Positions 51,689 through 56,886 of a DNA stretch of 64,000 nt are shown piece by piece; the first letter of the stretch is position 1, and each line of letters begins with the position of its first letter. Both the position numbers and the translations under genes were made by a program. The notes under the pieces are model-generated. The model worked only from the letters and a program-made list of their open reading frames with translations, had not been told where the DNA came from and ran no database searches. The DNA is taken from positions 124,001 through 188,000 of the forward strand of contig JAOATL010000015.1 of assembly GCA_030158125.1 (NCBI GenBank), given 5' to 3'. This DNA is from Limnohabitans sp. (GTDB taxonomy: Bacteria; Pseudomonadota; Gammaproteobacteria; Burkholderiales; Burkholderiaceae_C).

Positions 51689-52954
51689 ATGCGCAGAATC
51701 AGGCCGTTCTGGGATCTCACCCGAATCACTCACCATGCCCCCGATCTAGCGCCCTTTGCAGTCTGGCTGTCTTGGGCCCAACTGATCACTTGGGGCAGTG
51801 TGTTCTACACCTTCTCATTGGTCATGGGGCCGGTAGAACGCGAACTGGGCTTGAGCCGGGCCGATGCTTCTTTGGGTTTCAGTTTGGCTTTGCTGGCCGA
51901 TGGCCTGATGGCGTACCCCGTCGGACGCTGGATTGACCGTGGACACGAGCGCCGCGTCATGACTTGGGGCTCTGCTTGGGTGGGGCTGTGTTTGTTCGCA
52001 CACAGCTTTGTCGACTCACTCGCGGGCTTTTATGCGGTGTGGCTGGGATTGGGCCTTGGCATGTCCGCCACCTTGTATGCCCCCGTGTTTGCAGTGGTCA
52101 CGCGGCGCTTTCCAAATGACTTTCGGCGCGCCATCATCATCATGACGTTCTTGGGTGGCTTGGCCAGCACCGTCTTCATTCCGCTGTCGTCTTGGCTCAT
52201 TCAAAGTCTAGGTTGGCGCCATGCCTTATGGGTGCTGGCCTTGTTGCAATGGGTCATTTGTTTGCCCTTGCATGCATGGTTGCTGCAAGGTGCGGCCAAA
52301 AAGAAAACGCTTGCCACTGAAAGCGCAAACACCCATGTGCAAACAAAGCCCGTGTCCATCCAAGTGCATTTGAAACGAGCGCCCTTTTGGTTGCTGGCCG
52401 GCTTCATGCTGATGACCGCCATCGTCAGTTCTGCATTGCCTGCACACATGGTGAGTTTGCTGGAAGAAGCACACCTGTCACCGGCTTGGGTCATTGCCAT
52501 TCCCGCTTCGATTGGCGCCATTCAAGTGCTAGGGCGCTTCTTGTTGTTTTTGTTTGAAAAACATTTGGATGTGCATGCCGCCAACAAATGGATCCCATGC
52601 TTGGTGCCAGTGGGCTTGGTGTTTTTAGTAGCCGGCGGTTTAGCGCCTTGGGCCGCTTTGTTGTTCGTCACGTTCTATGGGCTTGGCAATGGACTCAACA
52701 CCATCGTCAAAGGCACCGCCATGGCGCAGTACGTCAGCCGCGACCATGTCGGCCAACTCAATGGTGTCTTGGGCGTGCCCTTGGCCATGGGACGCGCGGT
52801 TGCGCCTTGGGCTTTGGGTTTGATGTGGACGCCCGAGGTGGGCTACACGCACGGCCTGCGTTGGTTGTTACTGGCCGGCGTCTTGGGTGTGGCGTGTTTG
52901 TGGTGGGCGCAAAAGAGCGCGCTTCAAGCACACACGAAGGCGCTTACAAATTAG
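51689..52954 (+). CDS. MFS transporter
   Basis: A 421-residue protein with about twelve helices. The helix 2-3 loop reads [18 protein letters not shown], with [17 protein letters not shown] later. The substrate is unknown; the overall form resembles oxalate/formate-type or nitrate-unrelated MFS members. It starts seven bases after comM, so the two may be co-transcribed. Its stop overlaps the convergent metH end by 11 bases. Confidence 0.85.
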
Positions 52955-55688
52955 GCGCCAACAATCGCTGAATGTCTGACACTTTCAAGTTTTGACGTTT
53001 GGCCAAATCTTGCACTTGGTCTTCACTCACTTTGCCCACGTTGAAGTACTGACTGTCGGGATGGCTGAGGTAAAAACCTGACACGCTGGCGGCGGGTGTC
53101 ATGGCCAAACTCTCGGTCAGGCCCATGCCAATCTCTTCGCATTGCAAGAGTTCAAACATTTGTTTTTTGACCGAGTGGTCTGGGCATGCGGGGTAGCCTG
53201 GCGCGGGCCTGATGCCTTGATATTTCTCGGCAACCAAATCTTCCAGCGTTGCGCTCTCTGCTGCAGCGTAGCCCCACAAATCTTTGCGCACGCGCTCGTG
53301 CATGCACTCTGCAAAGGCTTCTGCAAATCTGTCGGCCAAGGCCTTGAGCATGATGGCGCTGTAGTCGTCGTGCGCGGCTTCAAAAGCTTGCTCGCGTTTT
53401 TCAACACCGATGCCAGCCGTGACGGCGAAAACGCCAACGTAATCTTGTAGTTTTGTAGGTTGACCTTTTGCATCAAGCAAAGGTGCCACAAAGTCTGCCA
53501 AGCAACGGCTGGGTTTGCCGGTTTGCTTTTCTGTTTGTTGACGCAGGCCATGCCAAGTGAGCACAGGCGTTTGACGTGACTCATCGGCATACAAAGCAAT
53601 GTCGTCATGGTTCACGCTGTTGGCGGGGTACAAGCCCATCACGCCATGCGCCGTGATCCAACGGCCTTCAATGATTTTTTGCAGCATCTTCTGCGCATCG
53701 TTGAACACCTTTTGCGCTTCAACGCCCACCACTTCGTCTTTCAAAATGGCGGGGTATGGGCCGGCCAAATCCCATGTTTGGAAGAAGGGACCCCAGTCGA
53801 TGTAGCGTGCCAATTCGGCCAGGTCAAAATTCTTGAACACACGACGGCCAATGAACTTGGGCGTGGGTGATTTAAAGCTTGTCCAATCGATTTGTGTCTT
53901 ATTGCCGCGCGCTTTGACCAAAGGCCACATGGGCGTTTGCTTTTTATTGGCATGCATCTCACGCACTTTGGCGTAATCAGCATTGAGCTCGTCAATGTAA
54001 GTAGCGGCTTGGTCAGACAACAAACCTTGCGCCACACTCACGCTGCGAGAAGCATCGGGCACATAGACCACAGGGCCTTCGTAGTGCGGCGCAATTTTGA
54101 CGGCCGTATGCACACGGCTGGTGGTGGCGCCACCAATCAGCAAAGGCATTTTGCGCAAACGGAAATGCGGATCTTTTTGCATTTCGCTGGCCACGTACTG
54201 CATCTCTTCCAAGCTGGGGGTGATGAGCCCTGACAAGCCAATGATGTCGGCATTTTCTTCTTTGGCCTTGGCCAAAATTTCATGGCAGGGGACCATCACG
54301 CCCATGTTGACCACGTCAAAGTTGTTGCACTGAAGTACCACCGTCACAATGTTTTTGCCAATGTCGTGCACGTCGCCTTTGACAGTGGCAATCACAATCT
54401 TGCCCTTGGATTTGACGTCTTGGCCAGCAGCTTCTTGCTGGCGTTTTTCTTCTTCGATGTAAGGCACCAAGTGCGCCACCGCTTGCTTCATGACGCGCGC
54501 CGACTTGACCACTTGTGGCAAGAACATCTTGCCTTGGCCAAACAAGTCGCCCACCACATTCATGCCATCCATCAGCGGACCTTCAATGACGTGCAGGGGT
54601 CGGCCGTTCTTGGCCAATATTTCTTGATAGGCTTCTTCGGTGTCTTCGGTGATGAAGTCGGTAATGCCATGCACCAAGGCGTGTGACAAGCGCGCGGAGA
54701 CAGTCACTGGCGCATCGGGCGTGCCGCGCCATGCGAGTTTTTGCGAGTCATCTTTTGCCGCGCCTTTGGCGTTCTCAGCCACTTCGACCAAGCGCTCGCC
54801 GGCATCAGGGCGACGGTTCAAGACCACGTCTTCAACACGCTCACGCAAGTCGGGCTCGAGTTCGTCGTACACACCCACCATGCCCGCATTGACAATGCCC
54901 ATGTCCATGCCCGCTTGAATGGCGTGGTACAAAAACACCGTGTGAATGGCTTCGCGCACGGGGTCATTGCCGCGGAAGCTGAACGACACATTGGACACAC
55001 CGCCCGACACTTTGGCGCCTGGCAAATTTTGTTTGATCCAACGCGTGGCTTCAATGAAGTCCACTGCGTAGTTGTCGTGTTCTTCAATGCCGGTGGCAAT
55101 GGCAAAAATGTTGGGGTCAAAAATGATGTCTTCCGGTGGGAAGTCCACCTCGTCCACCAACACGCGATACGCACGTTCACAAATTTCAATTTTGCGCTGA
55201 TACGTATCTGCCTGGCCTTTTTCGTCGAACGCCATCACCACGGCTGCGGCGCCATAACGCTTGATCAACTGCGCTTGTTGCTTGAAACCTTCCACGCCTT
55301 CTTTCATGCTGATGGAGTTGACAATGCCTTTGCCCTGAATGCAACGCAGGCCGGCCTCAATCACGCTCCACTTGGAAGAGTCGATCATGATGGGCACGCG
55401 GGCAATGTCGGGCTCGGAGGCGATGAGGTTCAAGAACCGAACCATGGCCGCTTGGCTGTCCAACATGGCTTCGTCCATGTTGATGTCAATGATCTGTGCG
55501 CCGTTTTCCACTTGCTGGCGGGCTACCGCCAAGGCTTGCTCGTACTCGCCATTCAAAATCATGCGGGCGAAGGCTTTGGAGCCTGTGACGTTGGTGCGCT
55601 CACCAATGTTGACAAAGAGCGTACCCGTGCCAATTTGAACCGGCTCTAGACCTGACAGCTTTAATGGGGGAACAGCAACTGAAGACAC
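52944..55688 (-). CDS. metH: Methionine synthase, folate-, cobalamin- and SAM-binding modules
   Basis: This part of cobalamin-dependent methionine synthase carries the methyl-THF domain ([18 protein letters not shown]), the cobalamin domain with the His ligand in [10 protein letters not shown], and the C-terminal activation domain ([13 protein letters not shown]). It has 914 residues. The start is GTG, eight bases after an AGAGGTGA site. An SAH riboswitch lies directly upstream. The homocysteine module is encoded by the preceding gene, so the enzyme works as two polypeptides. The C-terminus overlaps the convergent MFS gene. Confidence 0.95.
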
Positions 55689-55708
55689 AACTCACCTCTT
55701 GGATCGCA

Positions 55709-55806
55709 GGTGAGCGTGGTTTGCAATAGGAATGGGGCGAGCCCCAGATTGAACCCCAAGCCTGACCTGCGACCTGTAAGGCCTGCGGGCTGCAACGCTC
55801 CTTGGG
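55709..55806 (-). promoter_or_regulatory. S-adenosylhomocysteine (SAH) riboswitch
   Basis: On the minus strand CCCAAG (55801-55806) pairs with CTTGGG (55755-55760) as P1. Conserved bases GGAGCGTTGC and GTCAGGCTTGGG match the SAH aptamer. The pseudoknot pairs 55795-55800 with 55712-55717, and an optional P3 hairpin is at 55734-55745. AGGTGAG (ribosome-binding site, 55691-55697) can pair with CTCACCT (55708-55714), which shares three bases with the pseudoknot strand. SAH binding should therefore free the ribosome-binding site. Confidence 0.9.
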
Positions 55807-55814
55807 ATGCCGTT

Positions 55815-55843
55815 ATTTTAACTGGCTAAATGCAAGCGATTAA
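55815..55843 (-). promoter_or_regulatory. Candidate promoter for the riboswitch-metH transcript
   Basis: TTAATC is followed after 17 bases by TAAAAT on the minus strand. The -35 is weak. The predicted start (about 55808) falls at the first base of the riboswitch P1 stem, which supports it; it overlaps the stop of the upstream gene. Confidence 0.4.
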
Positions 55844-56886
55844 GCTGCCTCTTTGTAAAACGCCGCTTTGTGCAAACCGCGAGGTGCCAGCGGGCTCACA
55901 GCCTGTTGAATCGCCCCAATGTGATCGGGTGTGGTGCCGCAGCATCCTCCCACAATGTTGACCAAACCTTCGGCCGCAAATTCATGCAACAAACGGCTGG
56001 TCACATCGGGCGTTTCATCAAAGCCGGTGTCGCTCATGGGGTTGGGCAAACCGGCATTGGGGTAACAGCTGATGAAGGTGTCGTCCGCCACTTTGGCCAA
56101 CTCTTGAATGTACGGGCGCATCAAAGTAGCGCCCAAAGCGCAATTCAAACCAATGGCCAAGGGGCGAGCATGGCGCACACTGTGCCAAAACGCTGTCACG
56201 GTTTGGCCACTCAAAATTCGGCCCGAGGCATCGGTCACGGTGCCACTGATGATCAGGGGCAAGCGCTCGCCGCTGACATCAAAATATTCCTCAATGGCAA
56301 ACAAGGCTGCTTTGGCGTTCAAGGTGTCAAAAATGGTTTCCACCAACAACACATCGACACCGCCTTCAACCAGCGCTTGTGTTTGTTCGTAGTAGGCCTT
56401 GCGCAAAGATTCAAAGTCGACATTGCGCGCACCGGGATCGTTCACATCGGGGCTGATGCTGGCGGTTTTGGGTGTGGGGCCTAAGGCGCCTACGGCATAG
56501 CGCGGCTTATCGGGTGTTGAAAACTTGTCACATGCCGCGCGGGCCAGGGCGGCCGAGGCGCGGTTCATTTCAATGGCCAAGTCGGCCATGTCGTAATCGG
56601 CTTGCGCAATGGTGGTGGCACCAAAGGTATTGGTTTCAATCATGTCTGCACCAGCCGCCAAGTAGCCTTCGTGAATGTCACGGATGACATCGGGGCGCGT
56701 CAGGCTGAGCAACTCGTTGTTGCCCTTCACGTCTTTGTGAAAGTCTTTGAAACGCTCGCCGCGGTAATCGGCTTCGCTTAATTTAAAGCGCTGAATCATG
56801 GTACCCATGGCGCCATCCAAGACGGCAATGCGTTTTTCCAAAATGGCTGGCAGGGCTTTCGCGCGTGTGTAGATCAAAGCTTTCAT
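55840..56886 (-). CDS. Homocysteine S-methyltransferase module of methionine synthase
   Basis: A 348-residue zinc-dependent domain equal to the N-terminal module of MetH. It starts [20 protein letters not shown]. Zinc ligands are Cys in GLNCALGAT and the pair in [12 protein letters not shown]. Motif [14 protein letters not shown] is typical of MetH rather than stand-alone MmuM proteins. It lies 151 bases upstream of the cobalamin half and uses a normal stop. Splitting is known in related genera, so I do not treat it as a pseudogene. Confidence 0.94.

Follow-up and report, generated by a model that had tools for sequence, protein, structure and literature searches.

Methionine synthase is encoded in two parts in the window (the whole 64-kb stretch of DNA analysed here), and an SAH riboswitch lies on the minus strand between them, directly before metH2, which encodes the cobalamin half of the enzyme. 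SAH is a by-product of SAM-dependent methylation, and ON logic is expected of the SAH riboswitch class. The arrangement raises the question, as a matter of protein balance, why one part alone of a two-part enzyme would respond to SAH. The source genome contains one metH1 match and one metH2 match, and it has one other SAH riboswitch, before ahcY (L001, C13; Pfam AdoHcyase). We consider it probable (about 0.8) that the metH2 leader controls translation as an SAH riboswitch working by strand exchange.

The SAH aptamer and its probable expression platform

A preliminary description of the locus had identified an SAH riboswitch and proposed a covariance search with the Rfam model. Scanning the window with cmscan returned RF01057 over its full length (model positions 1–78 of 78; E 0.00024), with 41.8 bits against a gathering score of 37 bits; it is the sole Rfam family above its gathering score within the 64 kb. 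The parts of the element are collected in Table 1. P1, of 7 bp with one U.G, is found in the sequence and the Rfam structure line, the six-base pseudoknot stands at the bases where it had been placed, and the hairpin inside P1, which contains a C.A mismatch, is probably what had been called P3.

Table 1. Features of the metH2 leader and its surroundings in the window
Feature	Position	Strand	Basis or remark
metH2, cobalamin half of methionine synthase (folate, B12 and activation domains), GUG start	52944..55688	minus	PF00809, PF02607, PF02310, PF02965
AGGUGAG, 3' arm of the alternative helix and Shine-Dalgarno region of metH2	55691..55697	minus	sequence, relatives
Switching strand CUCACCU; CUC shared with the end of the pseudoknot strand	55708..55714	minus	sequence; kept in relatives
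Pseudoknot 3' strand ACGCUC	55712..55717	minus	sequence, Rfam match, relatives
SAH riboswitch aptamer	55705..55809	minus	full-length RF01057, cmscan 41.8 bits
Linker stem-loop UGGGG-CUCG-CCCCA	55733..55746	minus	counter-evidence: CUCGCC (55741-55736) could re-pair with the Shine-Dalgarno bases 55696-55691
P1 3' strand UUGGGGU	55753..55759	minus	Rfam match
Hairpin inside P1, with C.A mismatch	55766..55789	minus	Rfam match
Pseudoknot 5' strand GAGCGU	55795..55800	minus	sequence
P1 5' strand AUCCCAA, partner 55759-55753	55802..55808	minus	Rfam structure line, sequence
-10-like box TAAAAT, 5 nt before the aptamer	55815..55820	minus	search for hexamers with 5/6 or better
Weak -35-like TTAATC, 3/6 bases	55838..55843	minus	same search
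metH1, homocysteine S-methyltransferase half	55840..56886	minus	PF02574

The seven-base-pair pairing proposed earlier for the ribosome-binding site, and the three bases common to it and the pseudoknot strand, are also exact in the sequence. This alternative helix, CUCACCU with AGGUGAG, encloses a loop of 10, and its first three bases, CUC (55714-55712), belong both to the pseudoknot strand and to the helix that hides the Shine-Dalgarno (SD) region. The mutually exclusive geometry thus described is supported by Rfam and by the relatives considered below. Directly downstream of AGGUGAG the window has UU and then the GUG start. Since GUG at 55688 is the sole start candidate of its frame between an in-frame stop 6 nt before it and a point 60 nt after it, AGGUGAG occupies the obligatory position of the ribosome-binding site. 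The predicted energies are -11.7 kcal/mol for the SD duplex, computed with what we take to be the 3' end of 16S rRNA, -9.2 for the hiding hairpin alone and -7.9 for the pseudoknot duplex.

The following course of events may be proposed. The transcript probably begins close to the first nucleotide of the aptamer, and its promoter would occupy the narrow space left after the metH1 stop codon. Without SAH, CUCACCU would pair with AGGUGAG, and metH2 would be translated poorly. At high SAH, the aptamer would fold and the pseudoknot would take the CUC, so that the hiding helix would lose its first three pairs and the ribosome could bind. More of the cobalamin half would then be made when SAM-dependent methylation leaves much SAH to recycle. 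We infer that the window copy binds SAH, that its promoter is active and that the cobalamin half is affected separately, and, from the geometry and from the known class, that SAH switches it ON.

Occurrence before metH2

Relatives were taken from the best 80 of 583 MetH2 loci in one genome scan. RF01057 lies above its cut-off before metH2 in 47 of these 80 (1/18, 0/15, 15/16, 17/17 and 14/14 by batch). No match precedes metH2 at five family-like loci (L054, L057, L081, L083 and L086) or at any of the 21 outgroup loci. With an in-house covariance model (R1, built from alignment A2), weak matches were obtained in two outgroups, at places other than before metH2 (L099, 17.4 bits; L096, 11.4 bits). 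At least one SAH element is present in 293 of 299 same-family genomes, which were drawn from a larger group. This wide occurrence agrees with Leyn et al. 2014 (PMC4239095), a passage of which counts MetH in the SAH riboswitch regulon as a member specific to Comamonadaceae.

The modest score of the window copy might be read as the mark of a relic, that is, of a decaying aptamer that is no longer functional. Indeed, 43 of the 47 metH2 loci with a match outscore its 41.8 bits, and the in-house model finds weak copies at L046 (23.7 bits) and L041 (19.9 bits). Against this reading, the window retains intact the conserved residues of the aptamer core, the two strands of the pseudoknot, the SD helix and the -10-like box, and at L084, the closest relative by MetH2 among the best 80 of 583 loci, the element is retained with 46.3 bits and a U.G within the SD helix. 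We regard decay as very improbable for the window copy. Elsewhere, weak and possibly decaying elements were seen before metH2 with the in-house model at L051 (2830-2932, 37.9 bits), L046 (2838-2968) and L041 (2896-2971).

Conservation of the switching helix

At the window locus alone, the switching helix could be due to chance: 7 bp were reached by 3.6% of 5000 dinucleotide shuffles (P about 0.04), a result that is not decisive. A comparative set of 66 metH2 leaders was therefore more informative than a single locus; it comprises the window, 47 loci from the MetH2 scan and 18 from a scan for SAH elements. The window also appears as L002 and was counted once. Extra loci (30, and 60 by place) came from the best listed matches of the same-family scan for SAH elements, so that strong aptamers are over-represented. 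Outside the 66 stand L041 (CGCTC not found), L078 and L140 (outside the motif pattern, though RF01057 matches both), L051, L048 and L181, and L035, L073 and L076 (no more than 2 nt of sequence before the MetH2 match). The 66 metH2 leaders and 72 ahcY leaders, treated below, all differ in their first 120 nt; the counts ignore kinship, and related sequences are not independent.

Of the 66 metH2-linked leaders, 57 have an unbroken helix of 6 bp or more that begins with CUC, as compared with 3.5% of shuffles of the downstream sequence; a 6-bp switching helix is absent in the other nine. In 44 of the 57, no more than 10 nt separate the 3' arm from an in-frame start, which is the design of the window, and in 13 the arm is farther away (Roseateles, Mitsuaria, Pelomonas, Aquincola, Paucibacter, Albitalea and others). 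At the 21 outgroup loci without the riboswitch, GGTGAG was not found around the point where the MetH2 match begins, from 130 nt before it to 30 nt after it; in four of them the frame is open through metH1, so that this stretch is coding there.

Within the 44 leaders of the window design, the core pairs CUCACC/GGUGAG are near-invariant, the sole change being A-U to G.U at position 4, in five leaders. There is therefore little covariation in these six pairs, and the pairing is neither proved nor disproved by them. Variation is found farther out. Position 7 is U-A, C-G or U.G in 38 of the 44 and unpaired in 6, while position 8 is G-C, U-A, A-U or G.U in 34 and unpaired in 10. When the arms of the 28 distinct metH2 pairs were swapped, the observed Watson-Crick count was reached in 27 of 2000 trials and the observed mean helix length in 424 of 2000, so that the helices are not clearly longer than swapped ones. 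The corresponding values for the ahcY leaders were 198 of 2000 (Watson-Crick count) and 23 of 2000 (helix length). Pooling metH2, ahcY and metH1 leaders gave 0 of 2000, which is no proof because classes are mixed and the results within classes are weaker. The pseudoknot itself provides a further comparison: its last pair is U-A in 37, U.G in 17 and C-G in 12 of the 66 metH2 leaders, and C.A in none. Judged from these leaders, covariation is present among relatives at the last pair of the pseudoknot. A search of the metH2 coding start for a third pairing element gave none (67 of 200 swaps came up to the observed value).

Four leaders with a distant arm (L074, L077, L079 and L082, from Pelomonas, Roseateles, Mitsuaria and Paucibacter) form a group of their own. 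In these, GGUGAG overlaps the loop of a G+C-rich hairpin, by eye of the GGCCGCG...CGCGGCC type, some tens of nucleotides before the likely metH2 start. This looks like a different, remote expression platform.

Accessibility of the SD region in fold models

The fold models were of the nearest-neighbour kind and omit the energies of the pseudoknot and of the ligand. The SD is closed without the pseudoknot (mean unpaired below 0.2) in 43 of the 44 leaders. Blocking the 3' strand of the pseudoknot raised the mean unpaired value of the SD from 0.04 to 0.31 over the 44 leaders, and the SD opened by more than 0.1 in 38 of them, the window included. Values above 0.5 were reached in four, one of which (L164) was open beforehand. 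For the window, blocking the pseudoknot strands raised the mean unpaired value of the SD from 0 to 0.14. When the window leader is folded without constraints, the structure of minimum energy is not that of the aptamer, and the leader, at 151 nt, folds only slightly better than its shuffles (z -1.37).

The window is a poor case in the fold model because CUCGCC in the linker can take the SD. The element might accordingly be a genuine SAH element in which the pseudoknot alone fails to free the SD, the linker bases re-pairing with it; this copy would then be constitutively low or need another factor. In the model, with the aptamer helices formed and the pseudoknot strands blocked, the SD does still pair with 55741-55736. 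However, the linker can form its own 5-bp stem-loop, the calculation leaves out the pseudoknot and ligand terms, and the window belongs with the 38 leaders that open by more than 0.1. We consider such a trap unlikely, and direct release of the SD by strand exchange remains the preferred reading of the metH2 leader.

A probable promoter and the separation of the two metH halves

A -10-like box, defined as a hexamer with at least 5/6 bases starting within 30 nt before the aptamer, is present in 64 of 67 metH2-linked leaders, compared with 3.7% of base shuffles used as the control, and in 67 of 72 ahcY leaders, compared with 2.1%. It ends 4–13 nt before the aptamer in the 64 metH2 leaders, and 4–8 nt before it in 57. 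The -35 boxes are weak (at least 4/6 bases in 3 of 64 metH2 leaders and in 7 of 67 ahcY leaders), and a simple promoter scan did not report the TAAAAT box of the window. The conserved -10-like box suggests that the aptamer lies at about the start of transcription and that metH2 would have its own promoter even where metH1 adjoins. Hence metH2 probably has its own transcript, from a separate promoter.

The position of the halves bears on the same point. Both were found in 143 same-family genomes and placed in 141 (G040 and G046 have no listed place for metH2; G083 and G068 carry the halves on different contigs). They share one contig in 106 and lie on different contigs in 35, which in draft genomes does not necessarily mean that they are unlinked. 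Among the 106, metH1 lies upstream of metH2 at a distance of no more than 300 nt in 16 and at a greater distance in 81; it is on the opposite strand in 7 and downstream of metH2 in 2. At the metH1 loci searched with the in-house model (the best 30 of 145 genomes with a match), the element follows metH1 in 11 and precedes it in one (L181), and none occurs in the stretch searched in 18. The operon reading, in which metH1 and metH2 share one transcript and the translation of the second gene is regulated, was considered and is weakened by the -10-like box and by how far apart the halves lie in relatives.

The preliminary description had proposed that synthesis of the cobalamin half only would be raised. 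For the window this is likely: the -10-like box favours it, neither RF01057 nor the in-house model finds an SAH element before metH1, and the halves lie within 300 nt of each other in only 16 of the 106 genomes. It is not a rule of the family, as loci L048 and L181 demonstrate. There, an SAH riboswitch (1-78 and 1386-1475, respectively) stands directly before metH1 and not before metH2, with a switching strand of the CUCACU type and a matching arm before the metH1 start; by eye, position 6 of the helix in these metH1-linked copies is U.G (L181) or U-A (L048) instead of C-G. The findings suggest that, in this family, an SAH-sensing transcript serves the cobalamin half separately from the homocysteine half.

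With respect to gene order in general, the split metH halves are rarely adjacent in the same family, and most of the outgroup Burkholderia-like loci (L088–L112) have them adjacent and without the riboswitch. Four outgroup loci (L099, L108, L110 and L111) look unsplit.

The ahcY leaders

A passage of PMC7057144, citing Wang 2008, states that SAH raises ahcY expression. Of the 72 ahcY leaders, whose start codons were picked by a simple SD rule, 60 also have a helix of 6 bp or more that involves the pseudoknot strand. Its partner, the near arm, is of the GGUGAG type and ends at least 40 nt before the chosen AUG in 59 of these (median 57); the near arm is for this reason not the SD.

Control of metH2 might instead be mainly transcriptional, by intrinsic or Rho-dependent termination in the leader, the overlap with the SD being a side effect. 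The ahcY leader of the source genome has the homologous helix CUCAUCC/GGAUGAG, soon followed by UAUUUUUU, and a run of at least five U occurs within 14 nt of the near arm in 8 of the 60 ahcY leaders (near 1590-1615 in L001, and in seven others). The U-run after the ahcY near arm is possibly an intrinsic terminator. No U-run follows the metH2 helix of the window, however, which is not what an intrinsic terminator would have; a terminator scan of the metH2 leader gave one site, in the linker, which is below the mean of 2.3 in shuffled sequences. The same scan found none in L001, where the loop is larger than the limit of 8 used in the scan. Termination as the main control of metH2 therefore appears improbable, rather more so than the linker trap and slightly less so than decay of the element, and translational strand exchange is retained for this leader.

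Beyond the near arm, the bases after CUC in the ahcY leaders have a far partner with at least six Watson-Crick pairs in 47 of the 60, as compared with 12.9% of shuffles. This far arm ends 18–35 nt before the AUG in 46 of the 47. Upon swapping partners among 59 distinct ahcY leaders, the observed value was reached in 0 of 60 cases; the far helix therefore covaries strongly. A further pairing is available between the far arm and the ahcY SD (in swaps among 44 distinct leaders, 0 of 300 came up to the observed value), and it is present in the minimum-energy folds of L158 and L011. These observations suggest a multi-strand relay, in which formation of the pseudoknot would allow the extension to capture the far arm and would thereby leave the ahcY SD free.

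The fold model supports the relay in part. With the pseudoknot strand blocked, the extension captures the far arm in L011, whereas L158 keeps the far arm on the SD, and in L001 the SD stays closed (0.00 to 0.02). Over the 60 leaders, the same constraint opened the ahcY SD by more than 0.1 in 23 and closed it in 4, the mean rising from 0.19 to 0.28.

Taken together, the leaders would fit a more general scheme for Comamonadaceae-like bacteria, in which a single SAH aptamer serves interchangeable outputs through the same 3' extension of the pseudoknot strand: direct pairing with the SD at metH2, a choice between near and far arm at ahcY with the far arm relaying to the SD, and, in two relatives, relocation of the unit to a position before metH1. 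We would give this scheme an even chance of being correct. The ahcY relay is a cleaner candidate for a new RNA mechanism than the metH2 switch, and both the relay and the relocation to metH1 deserve a separate look.

Comparison with known systems

By comparison with the SAH riboswitch class as represented by RF01057, the window element has the same aptamer core, P1, inner hairpin and pseudoknot, and likewise stands upstream of a gene of the SAM cycle. The aptamer differs from the class in nothing beyond its long linker. Its expression platform appears to be where it departs, in that the pseudoknot strand pairs with the SD itself. Relatives give good support to the metH2 leader as a sound member of a known riboswitch class, with strand exchange over the SD and a predicted response to SAH, and what had been a pairing drawn by hand has become a comparative case with precise, testable bases.

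The riboswitch, the target gene and the family are the same as in the metH regulon of Leyn et al. 2014 (PMC4239095), as given in passages of that paper. Other passages name metH1 and metH2 for Xanthomonas, and metH2 under the protein SahR. The passages on the SAH-controlled metH make no mention of an SD helix or of a promoter. A further comparison is with the strand-exchange translational riboswitches reviewed in PMC10907184. As described in a passage of that paper, one sequence there takes part either in the aptamer or in a helix that covers the ribosome-binding site, and the metH2 leader would follow the same either/or principle. According to the same source, the switching sequence is most commonly in the first helix, whereas in the window it would be the pseudoknot strand that is exchanged between the aptamer and the SD.
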